From positions 8,335,114-8,399,113 of the forward strand of contig CM067302.1 of the NCBI GenBank assembly GCA_034231615.1: DNA of 64,000 bases, read 5' to 3'. Shown here piece by piece: positions 1 to 60,147 of this stretch (the first letter of the stretch is position 1; each line of letters begins with the position of its first letter). Source of the DNA: Meghimatium bilineatum (Eukaryota > Mollusca > Gastropoda > Stylommatophora > Philomycidae). Both the position numbers and the translations under genes were made by a program. The notes below the pieces were generated by a model. The model was not told the DNA's origin and made no database searches. It saw only the letters and a list, made by a program, of their open reading frames with translations.

Positions 1-3000
1 AGAAACACATCCTACTTGGAAATCTAGCAGAAACATCCTACTGGAAATCTAACAGAAACATCCTACTGGAAATCTAGCAGAAACATCCTACTGGAAATCT
101 AGCAGAAACACATCCTACAGGAAATCTAACAGAAACATCCTACAGGAAATCTAGCAGAAACACATCCTACTGGAAATCTAGCAGAAACATCCTACTGGAA
201 ATCTAGCAGAAACACATCCTACTGGAAATCTAGCAGAAACACATCATACAGGAAATCTAACAGAAACATCCTACTGGAAATCTAGCAGAAACATCCTACT
301 GGAAATCTAGCAGAAACATCCTACTGGAAATCTAGCAGAAACACATCCTACTGGAAATCTAGCAGAAACACATCATACAGGAAATCTAACAGAAACATCC
401 TACTGGAAATCTAGCAGAAACACATCATACAGGAAATCTAACAGAAACATCCTACAGGAAATCTAGCAGAAACACATCCTACTGGAAATCTAGCAGAAAC
501 ACATCCTACTTGGAAATCTAGCAGAAACACATCATACAGGAAATCTAACAGAAACATCCTACTGGAAATCTAGCAGAAACACATCCTACTGGAAATCTAG
601 CAGAAACACATCCTACTGGAAATCTAGCAGAAACACATCCTACTGGAAATCTAGCAGAAACATCCTACTTGGAAATCTAGCAGAAACATCCTACTGGAAA
701 TCTAACAGAAACATCCTACTGGAAATCTAGCAGAAACACATCCTACTGGAAATCTAGCAGAAACATCCTACTGGAAATCTAGCAGAAACACATCCTACAG
801 GAAATCTAACAGAAACATCCTACTGGAAATCTAGCAGAAACACATCCTACTGGAAATCTAGCAGAAACACATCCTACTGGAAATCTAGCAGAAACATCCT
901 ACTGGAAATCTAGCAGAAACACATCATACAGGAAATCTAACAGAAACATCCTACTGGAAATCTAGCAGAAACACATCCTACTGGAAATCTAGCAGAAACA
1001 TCCTACTGGAAATCTAGCAGAAACACATCATACAGGAAATCTAACAGAAACATCCTACTGGAAATCTAGCAGAAACACATCATACAGGAAATCTAGCAGA
1101 AACACATCCTACTGGAAATCTAGCAGAAACACATCCTACTGGAAATCTAGCAGAAACATCCTACTGGAAATCTAGCAGAAACACATCCTACAGGAAATCT
1201 AGCAGAAACACATCCTACTGGAAATCTAGCAGAAACACATCCTACTGGAAATCTAGCAGAAACATCCTACTGGAAATCTAGCAGAAACACATCATACAGG
1301 AAATCTAACAGAAACATCCTACTGGAAATCTAGTAGAAACATCCTACTGGAAATCTAGCAGAAACACATCATACAGGAAATCTAGCAGAAACATCCTACT
1401 GGAAATCTAGCAGAAACATCCTACTGGAAATCTAGCAGAAACACATCATACAGGAAATCTAACAGAAACATCCTACTGGAAATCTAGCAGAAACACATCA
1501 TACAGGAAATCTAACAGAAACATCCTACTGGAAATCTAGCAGAAACATCCTACTGGAAATCTAGCAGAAACACATCATACAGGAAATCTAACAGAAACAT
1601 CCTACTGGAAATCTAGCAGAAACATCCTACTGGAAATCTAGCAGAAACACATCATACAGGAAATCTAACAGAAACATCCTACTGGAAATCTAGCAGAAAC
1701 ATCCTACTGGAAATCTAGCAGAAACACATCATACAGGAAATCTAACAGAAACATCCTACTGGAAATCTAGCAGAAACATCCTACTGGAAATCTAGCAGAA
1801 ACACATCCTACTGGAAATCTAGCAGAAACACATCCTACTGGAAATCTAGCAGAAACACATCCTACTGGAAATCTAGCAGAAACACATCATACAGGAAATC
1901 TAACAGAAACATCCTACTGGAAATCTAGCAGAAACATCCTACTGGAAATCTAGCAGAAACACATCCTACTGGAAATCTAGCAGAAACATCCTACTGGAAA
2001 TCTAGCAGAAACACATCATACAGGAAATCTAGCAGAAACATCCTACTGGAAATCTAGCAGAAACACATCATACAGGAAATCTAACAGAAACATCCTACTG
2101 GAAATCTAGCAGAAACACATCATACAGGAAATCTAACAGAAACATCCTACTGGAAATCTAGCAGAAACACATCATACAGGAAATCTAACAGAAACATCCT
2201 ACTGGAAATCTAGCAGAAACATCCTACTGGAAATCTAGCAGAAACATCCTACTGGAAATCTAGCAGAAACACATCATACAGGAAATCTAGCAGAAACATC
2301 CTACTGGAAATCTAGCAGAAACACATCATACAGGAAATCTAACAGAAACATCCTACTGGAAATCTAGCAGAAACACATCATACAGGAAATCTAACAGAAA
2401 CATCCTACTGGAAATCTAGCAGAAACATCCTACTGGAAATCTAGCAGAAACACATCATACAGGAAATCTAACAGAAACATCCTACTGGAAATCTAGCAGA
2501 AACATCCTACTGGAAATCTAGCAGAAACACATCCTACTGGAAATCTAGCAGAAACATCCTACTGGAAATCTAGCAGAAACACATCATACAGGAAATCTAA
2601 CAGAAACATCCTACTGGAAATCTAGCAGAAACACATCATACAGGAAATCTAACAGAAACATCCTACTGGAAATCTAGCAGAAACATCCTACTGGAAATCT
2701 AGCAGAAACACATCATACAGGAAATCTAACAGAAACATCCTACTGGAAATCTAGCAGAAACATCCTACTGGAAATCTAGCAGAAACACATCATACAGGAA
2801 ATCTAACAGAAACATCCTACTGGAAATCTAGCAGAAACATCCTACTGGAAATCTAGCAGAAACACATCCTACTGGAAATCTAGCAGAAACATCCTACTGG
2901 AAATCTAGCAGAAACACATCATACAGGAAATCTAACAGAAACATCCTACTGGAAATCTAGCAGAAACATCCTACTGGAAATCTAGCAGAAACACATCCTA

Positions 3001-6000
3001 CTGGAAATCTAGCAGAAACACATCATACAGGAAATCTAACAGAAACATCCTACTGGAAATCTAGCAGAAACATCCTACTGGAAATCTAGCAGAAACACAT
3101 CCTACTGGAAATCTAGCAGAAACACATCATACTGGAAATCTAACAGAAACATCCTACTGGAAATCTAGCAGAAACATCCTACTGGAAATCTAGCAGAAAC
3201 ATCCTACTGGAAATCTAGCAGAAACATCCTACTGGAAATCTAGCAGAAACACATCCTACTGGAAATCTAGCAGAAACACATCATACAGGAAATCTAACAG
3301 AAACATCCTACTGGAAATCTAGCAGAAACATCCTACTGGAAATCTAGCAGAAACATCCTACTGGAAATCTAGCAGAAACATCCTACAGGAAATCTAGCAG
3401 AAACATCCTACTGGAAATCTAGCAGAAACACATCCTACTGGAAATCTAGCAGAAACACATCCTACTGGAAATCTAGCAGAAACATCCTACTGGAAATCTA
3501 GCAGAAACACATCATACAGGAAATCTAACAGAAACATCCTACTGGAAATCTAGCAGAAACATCCTACTGGAAATCTAGCAGAAACACATCATACAGGAAA
3601 TCTAGCAGAAACACATCATACAGGAAATCTAACAGAAACATCCTACTGGAAATCTAGCAGAAACATCCTACTGGAAATCTAGCAGAAACACATCCTACTG
3701 GAAATCTAGCAGAAACATCCTACTGGAAATCTAGCAGAAACACATCCTACTGGAAATCTAACAGAAACACATCCTACTGGAAATCTAGCAGAAACATCCT
3801 ACTGGAAATCTAGCAGAAACACATCCTACAGGAAATCTAGCAGAAACATCCTACTGGAAATCTAGCAGAAACACATCCTACTGGAAATCTAACAGAAACA
3901 TCCTACTGGAAATCTAGCAGAAACATCCTACTGGAAATCTAGCAGAAACATCCTACTGGAAATCTAACAGAAACATCCTACTGGAAATCTAGCAGAAACA
4001 CATCCTACAGGAAATCTAACAGAAACATCCTACTGGAAATCTAGCAGAAACATCCTACTGGAAATCTAGCAGAAACACATCCTACTGGAAATCTAACAGA
4101 AACATCCTACTGGAAATCTAGCAGAAACACATCCTACTTGGAAATCTAGCAGAAACACATCCTACTGGAAATCTAGCAGAAACACATCATACAGGAAATC
4201 TAACAGAAACATCCTACTGGAAATCTAGCAGAAACATCCTACTGGAAATCTAGCAGAAACACATCATACAGGAAATCTAACAGAAACATCCTACTGGAAA
4301 TCTAGCAGAAACACATCCTACTGGAAATCTAACAGAAACATCCTACTGGAAATCTAGCAGAAACATCCTACTGGAAATCTAGCAGAAACACATCATACAG
4401 GAAATCTAACAGAAACATCCTACTGGAAATCTAGCAGAAACATCCTACTGGAAATCTAGCAGAAACACATCATACAGGAAATCTAACAGAAACATCCTAC
4501 TGGAAATCTAGCAGAAACATCCTACTGGAAATCTAGCAGAAACACATCATACAGGAAATCTAACAGAAACATCCTACTGGAAATCTAGCAGAAACACATC
4601 ATACAGGAAATCTAACAGAAACATCCTACTGGAAATCTAGCAGAAACACATCCTACAGGAAATCTAACAGAAACATCCTACTGGAAATCTAGCAGAAACA
4701 TCCTACTGGAAATCTAGCAGAAACACATCCTACAGGAAATCTAACAGAAACATCCTACTGGAAATCTAGCAGAAACACATCCTACAGGAAATCTAACAGA
4801 AACATCCTACTGGAAATCTAACAGAAACATCCTACTGGAAATCTAGCAGAAACACATCCTACAGGAAATCTAACAGAAACATCCTACTGGAAATCTAGCA
4901 GAAACATCCTACTGGAAATCTAGCAGAAACACATCATACAGGAAATCTAACAGAAACATCCTACTGGAAATCTAGCAGAAACACATCCTACTGGAAATCT
5001 AACAGAAACATCCTACTGGAAATCTAGCAGAAACATCCTACTGGAAATCTAGCAGAAACACATCATACAGGAAATCTAACAGAAACATCCTACTGGAAAT
5101 CTAGCAGAAACATCCTACTGGAAATCTAGCAGAAACACATCATACAGGAAATCTAACAGAAACATCCTACTGGAAATCTAGCAGAAACACATCCTACAGG
5201 AAATCTAACAGAAACATCCTACTGGAAATCTAGCAGAAACATCCTACTGGAAATCTAGCAGAAACACATCATACAGGAAATCTAACAGAAACATCCTACT
5301 GGAAATCTAGCAGAAACATCCTACTGGAAATCTAGCAGAAACACATCCTACAGGAAATCTAGCAGAAACACATCCTACAGGAAATCTAGCAGAAACACAT
5401 CATACAGGAAATCTAACAGAAACATCCTACAGGAAATCTAGCAGAAACACATCCTACTGGAAATCTAGCAGAAACACATCATACAGGAAATCTAACAGAA
5501 ACATCCTACTGGAAATCTAGCAGAAACATCCTACTGGAAATCTAGCAGAAACACATCATACAGGAAATCTAACAGAAACATCCTACTGGAAATCTAGCAG
5601 AAACATCCTACTGGAAATCTAGCAGAAACACATCATACAGGAAATCTAGCAGAAACATCCTAATGGAAATCTAGCAGAAATATCCTACTGGAAATCTAGC
5701 AGAAACACATCATACAGGAAATCTAGCAGAAATATCCTACTACAAATCTAGCAGAAACACATCCTACTGGAAATCTAGCAGAAACATCCTACTGGAAATC
5801 TAGCAGAAATATCCTACTGGAAATCTAGCAGAAACATCCTAATGGAAATCTAGCAGAAATATCCTACTGGAAATCTAGCAGAAACACATCATACAGGAAA
5901 TCTAGCAGAAATATCCTACTACAAATCTAGCAGAAACACATCCTACAGGAAATCTAGCAGAAACATCCTAATGGAAATCTAGCAGAAATATCCTACAGGA

Positions 6001-7535
6001 AATCTAGCAGAAATATCCTACTGGAAATCTAACAGAAACATCCTACTGGAAATCTAACAGAAACACATCCTACTGGAAATCTAGGAGAAACATCCTACTG
6101 GAAATCTAGCAGAAACACATCCTACAGGAAATCTAACAGAAACATCCTACTGGAAATCTAACAGAAACATCCTACTGGAAATCTAGCAGAAACACATCCT
6201 ACTGGAAATCTAGCAGAAACACATCATACAGGAAATCTAACAGAAACATCCTACTGGAAATCTAGCAGAAACATCCTACTGGAAATCTAGCAGAAACACA
6301 TCATACAGGAAATCTAACAGAAACATCCTACTGGAAATCTAACAGAAACATCCTACTGGAAATCTAGCAGAAACACATCCTACAGGAAATCTAACAGAAA
6401 CATCCTACTGGAAATCTAACAGAAACATCCTACTGGAAATCTAGCAGAAACATCCTACTGGAAATCTAGCAGAAACATCCTACTGGAAATCTAACAGAAA
6501 CATCCTACTGGAAATCTAGCAGAAACACATCATACAGGAAATCTAACAGAAACATCCTACTGGAAATCTAGCAGAAACATCCTACTGGAAATCTAGCAGA
6601 AACATCATACTGGAAATCTAACAGAAACATCCTACTGGAAATCTAGCAGAAACACATCATACAGGAAATCTAACAGAAACATCATACTGGAAATCTAGCA
6701 GAAACATCCTACTGGAAATCTAGCAGAAACATCCTACTGGAAATCTAGCAGAAACACATCATACAGGAAATCTAACAGAAACATCCTACTGGAAATCTAG
6801 CAGAAACATCCTACTGGAAATCTAGCAGAAACATCATACTGGAAATCTAGCAGAAACATCCTACTGGAAATCTAGCAGAAACATCCTACTGGAAATCTAA
6901 CAGAAACATCCTACTGGAAATCTAGCAGAAACACATCATACAGGAAATCTAACAGAAACATCCTACTGGAAATCTAGCAGAAACATCCTACTGGAAATCT
7001 AACAGAAACATCCTACTGGAAATCTAGCAGAAACACATCATACAGGAAATCTAACAGAAACATCCTACTGGAAATCTAGCAGAAACATCCTACTGGAAAT
7101 CTAGCAGAAACATCCTACTGGAAATCTAGCAGAAACATCCTACTGGAAATCTAGCAGAAACATCCTACTGGAAATCTAGCAGAAACATCATACTGGAAAT
7201 CTAACAGAAACATCCTACTGGAAATCTAACAGAAACATCCTACTGGAAATCTAAAAGAAACACATCCTACTGGAAATCTAACAGAAACATCCTACTGGAA
7301 ATCTAGCAGAAACACATCCTACTGGAAATCTAGCAGAAACACATCATACAGGAAATCTAACAGAAACATCCTACTGGAAATCTAGCAGAAACATCCTACT
7401 GGAAATCTAGCAGAAACACATCCTACAGGAAATCTAACAGAAACATCCTACAGGAAATCTAGCAGAAACATCCTAATGGAAATCTAGCAGAAATATCCTA
7501 CAGGAAATCTAGCAGAAATATCCTACTGGAAATCT
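1..7535. repeat. Satellite array, 25/27-bp units with 77-bp higher-order repeat
   Basis: The array runs without a break from the left window edge. Every unit shares the core TGGAAATCTAG or CAGGAAATCTAA, and two unit lengths alternate: 25 bp (AGAAACATCC...) and 27 bp (AGAAACACATC...). A 27-bp CACATCATACAGG unit followed by two 25-bp units recurs as a 77-bp block; CACATCATACAGG starts at 1571, 1648 and 1725, exactly 77 bp apart. Variant units (AATATCC, CTACAAATC, CCTAATGG) collect near 5650-6010 and at 7440-7530, so the array is not homogeneous. There are roughly 290 units. It has no reading frame of note. The left boundary is outside the window. Confidence 0.98.
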
Positions 7536-7549
7536 AGAAATAAAACTTA

Positions 7550-13223: not shown

Positions 13224-13306
13224 ATCCATCCATCCATCCATCCATCCATCCATCCATCCATCCATCCATCCATCCATCCATCCATCCATCCATCCATCCA
13301 TCCAAG
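13224..13306. repeat. (CCAT)n microsatellite
   Basis: About 20 uninterrupted CCAT tetranucleotides. On the other strand they give the repetitive peptide WMDG in one frame, which is not a gene. Confidence 0.99.
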
Positions 13307-13339
13307 AGTATTTCGTCCTCTGTTGTTTCTCTTGGTCAG

Positions 13340-13622
13340 TGTATTTACCGTAGAATTTCATATTCCTGAAGAATATGTTTTGTTGTCTGAATTGCTTGTC
13401 CATATGTACACATGGCAGTGTTGTCAATCTTGAACTTTGTCAATCTTGAAATATGATAGCGGAGTCGGTTGTGAACTGTTCTAATGCGCGGAAAGACAAC
13501 TTGTTCTGGTCTGTTCATAATTTGGTGGTCATCTTGTGTTGCATTTCTAATAGATGAACGGTTTTTTCCCCATGTTAATTTATTGGAAACATCTGGATGA
13601 TCGTTATAGGCATCGTTTCTGA
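13340..13622 (-). pseudogene. LINE-E C-terminal (post-RNase H) fragment
   Basis: The minus-strand reading is RPEQVVFPRIRTVHNRLRYH, then [20 protein letters not shown] and [10 protein letters not shown]. This matches the tail found in RNase H-bearing LINEs (R..Q....RLRTGH.RL......C.CG...QT..HILQ.C). A better copy of the same segment lies at 29380-29560 (VVIFRLRTGHNRLNSHMY). It abuts a 22-bp array on its 5' side (higher coordinates), and the reading frame runs straight into the array. Confidence 0.85.
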
Positions 13623-14107
13623 GCAAGATGATATACTTGCCATGACAAGATGATATACTTGCCATGACAAGATGATATACTTGCCATGACAAGATGATAT
13701 ACTTGCCATGACAAGATGATATACTTGCCATGACAAGATGATATACTTGCCATGACAAGATGATATACTTGCCATGACAAGATGATATACTTGCCATGAC
13801 AAGATGATATACTTGCCATGACAAGATGATATACTTGCCATGACAAGATGATATACTTGCCATGACAAGATGATATACTTGCCATGACAAGATGATATAC
13901 TTGCCATGACAAGATGATATACTTGCCATGACAAGATGATATACTTGCCATGACAAGATGATATACTTGCCATGACAAGATGATATACTTGCCATGACAA
14001 GATGATATACTTGCCATGACAAGATGATATACTTGCCATGACAAGATGATATACTTGCCATGACAAGATGATATACTTGCCACAACAAGATGATATACTT
14101 GCCATGC
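13623..14107. repeat. 22-bp tandem array, about 22 copies
   Basis: The repeating core is CAAGATGATATACTTGCCAT. The units are almost identical, so the array is recently amplified. All three minus-strand frames are open and give a 22-residue peptide repeat (MASISSCHGKYIILS...). That follows from a stop-free unit and is not evidence of coding. Both flanks carry GCATCGTTT, so the array sits inside a short duplicated or split LINE segment. Confidence 0.98.
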
Positions 14108-14299
14108 CATGATGATACAGCATCGTTTCCATGACATCATGCCTGCTACATGTACTATCATAGAAGATCTGGTTTACTTGGGCTGAGTCAACAGGGATGT
14201 GCTAGGTAGTCGGTAGGTAGTTAATGTTTACCTCATTTTGTGGGAGGCCCTGCCCTTTCAAACAGCGTACAACAAAGTCCGGTTAGGTTTTATCAGGAT

Positions 14300-14625: not shown

Positions 14626-14665
14626 AAATAATTTGAAAAGAAAATTCTCACCAAAGACTGATCTG

Positions 14666-14815
14666 TTGGGCCATTGGACAAAATACAACGGCGACACAAA
14701 GCATTTCCATTTTATGGATTATATCCTGCTGGAAATCTAGTTGGACCATTGTCCTACTACAAGAGAGATTCAGTGGGAGTTTGAGAATGAATACTCAGGA
14801 AGAAGAAGAAGAAAG
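14666..14815 (+). mobile_element. SINE 3' portion (variant S2)
   Basis: It contains GGGCCATTGGACAAAATA, ACGGCGACACAAAGCATTTC, ATCCTGCTGGAAATCTAG and GGGAGTTTGAGAATGAA, and ends in a (GAA)n tail. The same order of blocks occurs in reverse at 46747-46872 and 54938-55090. It is non-coding and 5'-truncated, and the 36-bp array begins directly at its tail. Confidence 0.8.
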
Positions 14816-14817
14816 TT

Positions 14818-15978
14818 CTAAAAGTATTACAAAATATTGCACAATTTCACAGTTTTTAAGTATGAAAACATATTGTGTTATTTCACAGTTTTTAAGTATG
14901 AAAACATATTGTGTTATTTCACAGTTTTTAAGTATGAAAACATATTGTGTTATTTCACAGGTTTTAAGTAGGAAAACATATTGTGTTATTTCACAGGTTT
15001 TAAGAATGAAAACATATTGTGTTATTTCACAGTTATTAAGTATGAAAACATATTGTGTTATTTCACAGTTTTTAAGTATGAAAACATATTGTGTTATTTC
15101 ACAGTTTTTAAGTATGAAAACATATTGTGTTATTTCACAGTTTTTAAGTATGAAAACATATTGTGTTATTTCACAGTTTTTAAGTATGAAAACATATTGT
15201 GTTATTTCACAGGTTTTAAGTAGGAAAACATATTGTGTTATTTCACAGTTTTAAGTATGAAAACATATTGTGTTATTTCACAGTTTTTAAGTATGAAAAC
15301 ATATTGTGTTATTTCACAGGTTTTAAGTAGGAAAACATATTGTGTTATTTCACAGTTTTTAAGTATGAAAACATATTGTGTTATTTCACAGGTTTTAAGT
15401 ATGAAAACATATTGTGTTATTTCACAGGTTTTAAGTATGAAAACATACTGTGTTATTTCACAGGTGGTTTTAAGTATGAAAACATATTGTGCTATTTCAC
15501 AGGTTTTAAGTATGAAAACATATTGTGTTATTTCACAGGTTTTAAGTATGAAAACATATTGTGTTATTTCACAGGTGGTTTTAAGTATGAAAACATATTG
15601 TGCTATTTCACAGGTTTTAAGTATGAAAACATATTGTGTTATTTCACAGGTTTTAAGTATGAAAACATATTGTGTTATTTCACAGGTTTTAAGTATGAAA
15701 ACATATTGTGTTATTTCACAGGTTTTAAGTATGAAAACATATTGTGTTATTTCACAGTTTTTAAGTATGAAAACATATTGTGTTATTTCACAGGTTTTAA
15801 GTAGGAAAACATATTGTGTTATTTCACAGTTTTTAAGTATGAAAACATATTGTGTTATTTCACAGTTTTTAAGTATGAAAACATATTGTGTTATTTCACA
15901 GTTTTTAAGTATGAAAACAAATTGTGTTATTTCACAGGTTTTAAGTATGAAAACATATTGTGTTATTTCACAGTTTTG
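14818..15978. repeat. 36-bp tandem array, about 32 copies
   Basis: Each unit contains TTTTAAGTATGAAAACATAT then TGTGTTATTTCACAG. The period is 36 bp, with occasional 35- and 39-bp units (an extra GTG). The period is a multiple of three and the unit is stop-free, so 12-residue peptide repeats (SMKTYCVISQFL) result in long frames. I regard these as spurious. The array is bounded by a SINE tail on the left and a G-rich repeat on the right. Confidence 0.98.
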
Positions 15979-16145: not shown

Positions 16146-16198
16146 TATGGACAGCCCGGAACATATTCAGTTCTTGAAGTATATATGCTATAGTCTGT
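16146..16198 (-). pseudogene. LINE-E C-terminal stub bordering the 29-bp array
   Basis: The minus-strand reading TQTIAYILQELNMFRAVHK corresponds to [14 protein letters not shown] at 13345-13400 and QTSEHFLQECANYD at 29510-29550. It lies immediately beyond the array in the same frame, so the array ends inside a LINE-E tail. Confidence 0.75.
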
Positions 16199-18260
16199 GT
16201 GTCTGTACACATGTACACGTGGGAGTGTTGTCTGTACACATGTACACGTGGGAGTCTTGTCTGTACACATGTACACGTGGGAGTCTTGTCTGTACACATG
16301 TACACGTGGGAGTCTTGTCTGTACACATGTACACGTGGGAGTGTTGTCTGTACACATGTACACGTGGGAGTGTTGTCTGTACACATGTACACGTGGGAGT
16401 GTTGTCTGTACACATGTACACGTGGGAGTGTTGTTTGTACACATGTACACGAGGGAGTGTTGTCTGTACACATGTACACGTGGGAGTGTTGTCTGTACAC
16501 ATGTACACGTGGGAGTGTTGTCTGTACACATGTACACGTGGGAGTGTTGTCTGTACACATGTACACGTGGGAGTGTTGTCTGTACACATGTACACGTGGG
16601 AGTCTTGTCTGTACACATGTACACGTGGGAGTCTTGTCTGTACACATGTACACGAGGGAGTGTTGTCTGTACACATGTACACGTGGGAGTCTTGTCTGTA
16701 CACATGTACACGTGGGAGTGTTGTCTGTACACATGTACACGTGGGAGTGTTGTCTGTACACATGTACACGAGGGAGTGTTGTCTGTACACATGTACACGT
16801 GGGAGTGTTGTCTGTACACATGTACACGAGGGAGTGTTGTCTGTACACATGTACACGAGGGAGTGTTGTCTGTACACATGTACACGTGGGAGTGTTGTCT
16901 GTACACATGTACACGAGGGAGTGTTGTCTGTACACATGTACACGTGGGAGTGTTGTCTGTACACATGTACACGTGGGAGTGTTGTCTGTACACATGTACA
17001 CGTGGGAGTGTTGTCTGTACACATGTACACGAGGGAGTGTTGTCTGTACACATGTACACGTGGGAGTCTTGTCTGTACACATGTACACATTGGAGTGTTG
17101 TCTGTACACATGTACACGTGGGAGTCTTGTCTGTACACATGTACACGAGGGAGTGTTGTCTGTACACATGTACACGTGGGAGTGTTGTCTGTACACATGT
17201 ACACGTGGGAGTGTTGTCTGTACACATGTACACGTGGGAGTCTTGTCTGTACACATGTACACGTGGGAGTCTTGTCTGTACACATGTACACGTGGGAGTG
17301 TTGTCTGTACACATGTACACGTGGGAGTCTTGTCTGTACACATGTACACGTGGGAGTCTTGTCTGTACACATGTACACGTGGGAGTGTTGTCTGTACACA
17401 TGTACACGTGGGAGTGTTGTCTGTACACATGTACACGTGGGAGTCTTGTCTGTACACATGTACACGTGGGAGTGTTGTCTGTACACATGTACACGTGGGA
17501 GTGTTGTCTGTACACATGTACACGTGGCAGTGTTGTCTGTACACATGTACACGTGGCAGTCTTGTCTGTACACATGTACACGTGGGAGTCTTGTCTGTAC
17601 ACATGTACACGTGGCAGTGTTGTCTGTACACATGTACACGTGGGAGTGTTGTCTGTACACATGTACACGTGGGAGTGTTGTCTGTACACATGTACACGTG
17701 GGAGTCTTGTCTGTACACATGTACACGTGGGAGTGTTGTCTGTACACATGTACACGTGGGAGTGTTGTCTGTACACATGTACACATGGCAGTGTTGTTTG
17801 TACACATGTACACATAGCAGTGTTGTTTGTACACATGTACACGTGGGAGTCTTGTCTGTACACATGTACACGAGGGAGTGTTGTCTGTACACATGTACAC
17901 ATGGCAGTGTTGTTTGTACACATGTACACATAGCAGTGTTGTTTGTACACATGTACACGTGGTAGTCTTGTCTGTACACATGTACACGAGGGAGTGTTGT
18001 CTGTACACATGTACACGTGGGAGTGTTGTCTGTACACATGTACACATGGCAGTGTTGTTTGTACACATGTACACATAGCAGTGTTGTTTGTACACATGTA
18101 CACGTGGGAGTCTTGTCTGTACACATGTACACATGACAGTGTTGTCTGTACACATGTACACATTGGAGTGTTGTCTGTACACATGTGAGGGTTGTCTGTA
18201 CACATGGGAGTGTTGTTTGTACAGATGACAGTGTTGTCTGTGCACACTGCCCATGTGGCT
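16197..18260. repeat. 29-bp tandem array, about 68 copies, derived from LINE-E
   Basis: Units contain GTCTGTACACATGTACACGT then GGGAGTGTT or GGGAGTCTT; the last 500 bp carry CATGGCAGTGTT and CATAGCAGTGTT variants. Because 29 is not a multiple of three and the unit has no stop on either strand, all six frames stay open for about 2 kb and give apparent proteins of 550-790 residues (repeating CTDNTPTCTCVQTTLPRVHV). The variant CATGGCAGTGTTGT also occurs in the LINE-E tail at 13410-13424. The left flank continues as LINE-E, so the unit seems to derive from the codons for NTAMCTYGQ. Confidence 0.97.
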
Positions 18261-18264
18261 GCGT

Positions 18265-18860
18265 CGCAAATCCTAAATTCTGTATAGATGTGATTGCAGA
18301 GTCGGCTGCGACCTTTTCTGAGGAGTATAAGTGCAACACTATCAGCCGCAATCTCCCTAGATGCTACACCTGTCCGTATGTTACCCAGACTCGGTCCGTC
18401 ACATTCCCATATGCCACTTTCTCCATTGAGGAGACTTTGTCCTGTGTATCCCGGAATGTCATCTATGCCATCATCTGCAAGCGCTGCACAATGAAGTACA
18501 CAGGTGAGACTCGTAGGAGACTTGATAACCGTTTCTGCGAGCCCCTACACAGCATCAAACACCATTCGGGCTATCCCGTGGACGTTCATTTTAACGGCAC
18601 AGGCCATTGGTGGCCCAGGATATTCAGGTGACGGCCATCAAATCATGCTTCTCCGACGACCGAACCCGTCTGGCGCTTGAGAACCGCTATATATATGAAT
18701 GTGGCACTCTGAAACCCTTGGGAATGAATGAGCGCTTGACATACGCATACTATCGGGTTGTTCCGTCATTTCTCGGTCTTGTTACAACATGTATTCAGTT
18801 TTCTTTATTTCCTATTTCTGTACATTTCCTGTTTGTGTCACCTTTGACCTCATAACTATC
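18265..18860 (+). pseudogene. Penelope-like element C-terminus (GIY-YIG endonuclease), broken
   Basis: The reading has PRCYTCPYV, then NVIYAIICKRCTMKYTGETR (the GIY-YIG core with its CxxC finger), RRLDNRF, PVDVHFNGTGH, and in a second frame ALENRYIYECGTLKPLGMNE. This is the order expected of the endonuclease at the end of Penelope-like polyproteins. The frame changes near 18610 and the RT domain is absent, so only the 3' end remains. The downstream 18860-19090 looks like its untranslated tail and includes a ribozyme-like motif at 18942. Confidence 0.88.
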
Positions 18861-29238: not shown

Positions 29239-29689
29239 CACACTGTGGAATAGCAGTCATCAATTCGCCAAGGAAGGTGCTAACATGCAGCAACCGGATG
29301 TACCAATCAGCTATCAGCAAAAGAAATCCACGATAAAGGCACATCGAAAGCCTAATTTACCTTCACGGGACGACTATAGCCTTCTTAACAGACAAGAACA
29401 GGTCGTCATATTTCGGCTCAGAACTGGACACAATAGACTAAACAGCCATATGTATACAAAATTTAAAATTGGCTCAACAGCAAAGTGTATTTCTGGGCAA
29501 GCCAACCAGACTTCAGAACATTTCCTTCAAGAATGTGCAAACTATGACACTTTAAGATGCACATACTGACCTTCTGATACACCAATGAATGTTAAACTCT
29601 ATGGTACAAAACAAGAAATGGAAAACACTGTCCAATTTATACAATAAACAACACTGCAGATATAGACATTTTTAGCGAACTAAAGAAGA

Positions 29690-59263: not shown

Positions 59264-59690
<427 letters not shown>

Positions 59691-59794
59691 ATATATATAT
59701 ATAGTAAGAGTATTTAAAAAGGTCAGCCAGCTTTTTCAGGGTTTTGGGGAGGGGGAGGGGGAGAATCCAAAGGGGTGATTGCATGCGAATTGCT
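59691..59794. other. Spacer of the inverted duplication
   Basis: About 100 bp: a short (AT)n, AAAAAGGTCAGCCAGCTTTT and a G-rich block (GGGGAGGGGGAGGGGGAGAA) related to the dispersed G-rich repeat. Confidence 0.7.
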
Positions 59795-60147
59795 CCATTA
59801 TCTACTCACCTAATATCACTGTATACACCGAACAATTATCTATTCACCTTATATCACTGTATATACCGAACAATTATGTACTCACCTTATATCACTGTAT
59901 ATACCGAACAATTATCTATTCACCTTATATCACTGTATATACCGAACAATTATCTACTCACCTTATATCACTGTATATACCGAACAATTATCTACTCACC
60001 TTATATCAATATATACACCGAACAATTATCTACTCACCTTATATCACCGTATACACCGAACAATTATCTACTCACCTTATATCACCGTATACACCGAACA
60101 ATTATCTACTCACCTTATATCACCGTATACACCGAACAATTTGAAAT
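59795..60147. repeat. 38-bp array, right arm of a large inverted duplication
   Basis: The reverse complement of the left arm: units contain ACTCACCTTATATCACTGTA then TATACCGAACAATTATCT. The outer end CACCGAACAATTTGAAAT is the exact complement of ATTTCAAATTGTTCGGTG at 59373. It has one more outer CACCGTATAC unit than the left arm. Open frames over both arms are spurious. Confidence 0.96.

Follow-up and report, generated by a model that had tools for sequence, protein, structure and literature searches.

We assign a probability of about 0.87 to the reading that a 29-bp minisatellite of 69 units was born in place inside a decayed LINE copy, through duplication and later multiplication of a 29-bp stretch of the LINE tail, so that the array is still bordered by LINE sequence at either end. 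The array lies in the 64-kb part of contig C5 that we analysed (the window; the assembly, to judge from its size and its LINEs that of a eukaryote, comprises 1.61 Gb in 32 contigs). A preliminary description of this DNA had proposed the birth of a satellite from a LINE codon block, and this is supported by the LINE flanks of the array together with the match of its unit to the block between them. The birth is traceable, as had been suggested, but is unique neither to this LINE copy nor to this codon block. The features on which the analysis rests are collected in Table 1.

Table 1. Arrays and LINE copies in the window (window coordinates), and places elsewhere in the assembly at which the C..CG block is arrayed.
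Feature	Position	Strand	Period and copies	Basis or remark
29-bp minisatellite	16200-18186	minus	29 bp, 68.5 copies, 95% matches	TRF; unit list
Degenerate units, LINE-5' end of the array and its most variable end	18155-18246	minus	about 21 bp	TRF and unit list
LINE upstream of the block (RLCNHIYTEFRI..), right boundary of the array	18218-18338	minus		profile E 2e-17; genome search
LINE downstream of the block (QTIAYILQEL), left boundary of the array	16157-16199	minus		profile 16232-16162, E 4.1e-9, including part of a unit; placed tests
Neighbouring copy of the same LINE family	13293-13651	minus		profile 13293-13550, E 1.5e-58; to 13651 with a longer profile
Further LINE tail copy, uninterrupted through the block	29335-29641	plus		profile 29336-29640, E 2.6e-54
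22-bp array, 5' end of the neighbouring LINE copy	13624-14117	minus	22 bp	first unit reached by LINE homology
Block array (L072, L073, L074)	C5 24.30-24.61 Mb		29 bp; 11.8, 17.8 and 7.8 copies	three near-identical segments, counted once
Block array (L118)	C25:55336805-55337175		29 bp, 12.8 copies	
Block array	C1 3.506 Mb		41 bp, 14.2 copies	
Block array (L071)	C5:19256063-19256183		41 bp, 3.0 copies	
Block array (L119)	C17:2868024-2868188		41 bp, 4.0 copies	
Block array	C2 26.38 Mb		39 bp, 13.3 and 18.0 copies	some 41-bp units
Block array	C4 12.244 Mb		31-33 bp	
Block array	C16 38.42 Mb		38 bp, 5.4 copies	
Block array	C21 55.39 Mb		43 bp, 5.1 copies	
Block array	C16 52.68 and 52.77 Mb		31-33 bp	92% alike over 316 bp, counted once
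Block array	C15 8.126 Mb		about 21 bp	degenerate
Block array	C2 1.930 Mb		mixed 21-29 bp and other periods	
Block array (L038)	C25 81.61 Mb		31 bp, 10.3 copies	

The array and its LINE flanks

Counted by the anchor GTACACATG, the array consists of 68 units of 29 bp and one of 21 bp. These fall into 12 kinds, 11 of 29 bp and one of 21 bp, and the commonest, GTACACATGTACACGTGGGAGTGTTGTCT, which carries CGTGGGAGTGTTGT, accounts for 27 of the 69. Both TRF and the anchor count confirm the array described earlier, but the span then given for it, 16146-18260, takes in both flanks. Likewise, the word CATGGCAGTGTTGT quoted from the unit is found in the LINE tail at 13411, but in only 3 of the 69 units (at 17784, 17900 and 18045). 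All three occurrences lie near the right end of the array, and the commonest unit differs from this 14-mer at two bases. The right third of the array is the richest in distinct units (11, with 4 in the left and 5 in the middle third), which suggests that the latest growth took place over the left two thirds and spared the right end. A search of the genome for the 23-base unit junction, allowing up to three mismatches, gave 10,427 matches (2,798 for the reversed pattern), and among the first 100 listed all 41 exact matches fall in this array. Among these listed matches the array does not belong to a dispersed satellite DNA family, in which one unit is arrayed at many loci; it has the appearance of a single-locus minisatellite, and nothing points to a function. 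Tandem repeats crowd the window as a whole, with 74 TRF rows, some of them overlapping.

The LINE family was defined from its own copies. At first look, the tail at 13320-13624 was matched at at least 40 places in the genome (40 scored of 3989 candidates), and the alignment of LINE copies gives the tail the form RLRSHMYTKFKIGNTAMCTCGQ..QT..HILQEC. Copy L049 combines the two domains that characterize a LINE with RNase H, a reverse transcriptase (RVT_1, E 4.4e-16) and an RNase H (RNase_H, E 1.6e-16), on two open stretches that adjoin each other and differ in frame. Since the C..CG tail follows RNase H in this copy, the earlier wording, an RNase H-side reading frame, holds. A profile was built from 66 tail stretches, with the window and the overlapping loci L009 and L039 left out. 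It matches the neighbouring copy on the minus strand, and the tail previously read there at 13345-13430 is real. The 22-bp array at 13624-14117 was not accepted as LINE-born on its unit match (14/22, with a shuffle maximum of 15); going by the LINE homology that reaches its first unit, it possibly has this origin.

The LINE segment that corresponds to the unit is the C..CG block after RNase H, with the codons for NTAMCTCGQ. The 11 kinds of 29-bp unit share 23 to 25 of their 29 bases with the LINE consensus (24 for the commonest), where the best of 200 shuffles of each reached 19 to 22. For the 21-bp unit the agreement is 16/21 (best of 200 shuffles, 15), and for the TRF consensus of the 21-bp units it is 18/21 (best of 30 shuffles, 16). 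LINE copies carry the unit sequence between the C.CG and QT..HILQ motifs, and copies of the same segment exist that are free of any array.

Both flanks of the array match LINE copies across the genome. The right flank is absent from the preliminary description and is much the stronger of the two; it is identical to the best copy, L040, at 65 of 82 positions, with a score of 79 against a control maximum of 36. On the left, TQTIAYILQELNMF, reported earlier on the minus strand immediately beyond the array, is present and aligns to the LINE at the expected position. Tested unplaced (48 bp, including 5 array bases), the left flank scored 31, and the controls (200 shuffles, 400 windows) scored up to 31 and 36. 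Tested in place with 9 array bases included it scored 35, and none of 1000 shuffles or 1000 random windows reached its maximum or its mean. Restricted to its 43 non-array bases it scored 29, a maximum reached by 2 of 1000 shuffles and 1 of 1000 windows, while its mean over the 66 copies was reached by none of either. Because both flanks match the LINE, the right more strongly, the array interrupts a single LINE tail, whose upstream half and downstream half border it in the right order. It is thus inside the tail at the spot where it had been said to lie, with collinear LINE that is strong on the right and modest over the 43 bp on the left. In these respects it has the make-up of a TE-derived minisatellite, being an array within a transposon copy, with ordered transposon sequence on both sides (modest on the left) and a unit that matches a transposon segment better than every one of 200 shuffles.

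Profile matches to the units by themselves (E about 1e-5 to 1e-2) are weak when taken alone, because the reversed window yields unit matches of up to E 2.6e-4. That result would suit a chance likeness of the unit to the LINE, arising through words of the GTACACATG type in an array unrelated to the element, as would loci L128 and L129, which carry the paired word CCATGTGTACA, have no LINE match and were rejected as LINE arrays. The collinear LINE on both sides contradicts such a chance origin, as does a unit identity above each of 200 shuffles, and we find it hardly credible.

Arrays at the same block and at other LINE blocks

The C..CG block is arrayed at 13 further places in the genome, with periods from about 21 to 43 bp. 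With the window this makes 14 places; ten of them have LINE sequence on both sides, and at the remaining four (C16 38.42, C21 55.39, C2 1.930 and L038) it was seen on one side in the stretch examined. The period is 29 bp at three clear places and 41 bp at four. LINE loci with few units at this position do exist, with three copies at L071 and four at L119, as does a 29-bp array of about 13 copies at L118. The copy number of the LINE-born 29-bp array differs between the segmental copies L072, L073 and L074.

These places were found through patterns (unit junctions or paired block words) and a sample of word sites, with locus L038 in addition. The pattern search gave 457 matches (205 for the reversed pattern); among the first 100 listed, 10 places were examined and 8 of the 10 are LINE, 7 of the 10 having been picked for their LINE-like look. 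The listed matches of the unit-junction search include 13 one-mismatch places outside the window, and the six that were examined comprise five arrays with LINE and one continuous LINE copy. Locus L121 is common to these six and to the 100 matches listed out of the 457. The paired-word search gave 11 matches at 4 places, and none with the reversed pattern. In the word sample, which covered 48 places outside the window (of 66 word matches), 34 are LINE at the word, with one array among them (L101). Two further candidates were rejected: L109 (42 bp) is LINE-like by eye and has no LINE match, and L125 is a continuous LINE copy.

To judge the independence of the births, pairwise distances between LINE flanks without the block were compared for 8 array-bearing copies and 57 copies with no array at the block, the nearest pairs on 106 to 284 columns. 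Each of the 8 has one of these 57 as its nearest neighbour, a result in favour of recurrent births. Neither the three 41-bp arrays that share breakpoints nor the three 29-bp arrays are one another's closest relatives. In a FastTree phylogeny L073 (29 bp) and L076 (33 bp) form a long-branched sister pair (support 0.79), next to which the window copy branches; these three copies may share one birth.

This tree grouping, the occurrence of period 29 at three clear places and that of period 41 at three places with the same breakpoints would all be accommodated if a source LINE that already had the duplicated block had spread by retrotransposition, the array copies then sharing one or few births. 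Such a history is quite improbable in our estimate, as it is at odds with the nearest relatives found by distance, which have no array at the block, with periods that vary widely among places, and with the single block array among the 34 LINE copies of the word sample. We retain birth in place within the individual copy for the array in the window. For the block at large, we tentatively propose, with a confidence a little short of even, that one LINE codon block is a recurrent birth site of minisatellites, with independent starts and with favoured periods of 29 and 41 bp set by the block sequence. If this is true, the recurrent births at the block document the initiation of minisatellites in replicate, starting from few copies.

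Arrays were also found at other parts of the LINE. The DVPITYH block is arrayed in L023 (27 bp, 16.2 copies), L027 (44 bp, 9.3 copies) and L071 (48 bp, 2 copies), the LINE 3' end in L027 (33 bp), L018 (28 bp) and L071 (26 bp), and the DDYQIMN block in L126 (40 bp, 2 identical copies) and L127 (46 bp, 6 copies). Locus L126 (C19:45378095-45378174), where two identical 40-bp copies stand in an otherwise continuous LINE, is the youngest stage seen; its unit agrees with the LINE consensus at only 28 of 40 positions, and LINE continues through the array on both sides. L071 (C5:19255750-19256550) has three internal tandem duplications in one LINE copy (48 bp x 2, 41 bp x 3 and 26 bp x 9).

The fourteen places at a single block of about 45 bp could mean that the block is itself a hotspot, its self-similar ACATGTATACA and CATGTGTACATGTGGACA giving rise to arrays at a higher rate than other parts of the element. 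We think this rather unlikely. The C..CG block was searched harder than any other, like-for-like pair searches gave 4 places for it (word in 13 of 66 tails) and 2 for GACTACCAAATTATGAA (word in 16 of 66), and the DVPITYH block and the 3' end start arrays as well.

LINE DNA was not enriched for arrays. Of the 48 arrays in 58 loci (183,473 bp), 4 had a LINE coverage above 20%; LINE occupies 57,053 bp of these loci, and the other 44 arrays lay in the remaining 126 kb; in this count the L038 array was missed as LINE, and the choice of loci by intact LINE tails is a bias against arrays there. On the 4 of 48 we reject LINE-specific birth as a general claim. Minisatellites are made freely in the sampled DNA, and their births are readable in LINE copies because the parent sequence is known.

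Junction homology and the first duplication

In the course of events that we propose for the array in the window, the host would have been a decayed copy of a LINE that codes for reverse transcriptase and RNase H, with a C..CG...H...C tail after them. The 29-bp tail stretch with the NTAMCTCGQ codons would have been duplicated in place, probably by slipped-strand or unequal exchange between short direct repeats that pre-existed in the LINE, and later expansion to 69 units would have come about by ordinary minisatellite growth. For period 29 the direct repeats would be GGCAACAC and GGCAGCAC.

These two words stand exactly 29 bp apart in the LINE consensus, which is identical at 7 of 8 positions at this offset. 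Offset 29 ties with 42 as the best of 49 offsets around the junction, with a score that 1.5% of LINE positions match at this offset. In the same test, four other arrays gave 1.5% (period 44, GATGATCAA twice), 3.4% (period 27, ATCAA twice), 1.6% (period 28) and 13.7% (period 33), with the period ranking 1, 3, 2 and 4, respectively, among offsets. A short repeat spaced by the period in the parent, as expected of birth at noncontiguous direct repeats, is therefore present, and it is weak or absent in several single arrays.

Exact homology at the junctions was also compared with simulation. Of 21 arrays, 2 were dropped for low identity; over the other 19, all with a unit identity of 75% or more, the mean is 2.58 bp, against 0.81 bp simulated, and none of 5000 resamples was as high. 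The 19 junctions are not independent because some share breakpoints; with shared junctions merged by hand, the mean is about 2.4 bp over 14. The array in the window has an exact junction homology of 4 bp (P 0.067), which is not individually decisive, and the 44-bp array scored only 1 here because its junction was placed elsewhere. Since several arrays have 0 to 2 bp of homology, direct repeats appear to help without being required. We infer from the junction repeats that slipped-strand mispairing or unequal exchange was probably at work.

Relation to known repeats and neighbouring features

Minisatellites born from transposable elements are a known kind, as human TE-derived arrays and LINE-derived satellites have been reported (PMC3389668, PMC9659126, in the portions drawn on here). 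The human survey counts 7,276 TE-derived minisatellites and satellites (23% of all human minisatellites and satellites), with hot regions in some elements, and cites the work of Jurka and Gentles on Alu; the mechanisms postulated cover only 6% of the human TE-derived cases (Ahmed and Liang 2012, PMC3389668). So far as these portions go, the present array resembles the human cases in having grown in tandem within a transposon, in some cases with short direct repeats at the borders of the duplicated segment, and differs in that a LINE coding block is involved, in several copies of one family, with few to 69 units. The LINE-derived satellites listed in the review, some of them ORF2 cases, include PROsat, Pvc20 and chicken HinfI from CR1 (PMC9659126). 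Our array shares with these three a unit taken from LINE coding sequence, but they are listed there as satellite DNAs, whereas ours is an apparent single-locus minisatellite with its birth site visible between LINE flanks. As in the direct-repeat model, to the extent that we draw on it here, the spacing of short repeats in the parent sets the period of the array; in contrast to the 5-10 bp repeats of that model, the exact homology is often 1 to 6 bp, and several junctions have 0 to 2. The present array is a new and unusually traceable TE-born minisatellite; we make no claim of newness for recurrent births at one block.

The first origin of minisatellites is poorly settled. In this LINE family, with candidates in the thousands, block arrays stand at 3, 4, about 13, about 14 and 69 units; another block shows a stage of two copies. 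The copies that keep the starting sequence provide a reference against which the rules of initiation, among them the breakpoints, the length of homology, the period and the direction of growth, are measurable.

Several other features of the window deserve mention. A 7.5-kb array at 7-7537 has a 25-bp unit that agrees at 20 of 25 positions with an interspersed element at 14641-14820 (maximum of 100 shuffles, 16), and relatives of this element are frequent in the examined loci. Going by the unit match alone, the 7.5-kb array may be a second one born from a transposable element. Beyond the right LINE flank, we take the plus strand at 18338-18631 to resemble the tail of a Penelope-like element; the Pfam search of this segment gave only GIY-YIG at E 0.04, below the Pfam cut-off. 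Towards the right end of the window, two facing 38-bp arrays (59379-59687 and 59797-60141) have near-complementary units and look, in the TRF results, like an inverted pair spanning 59379-60141.
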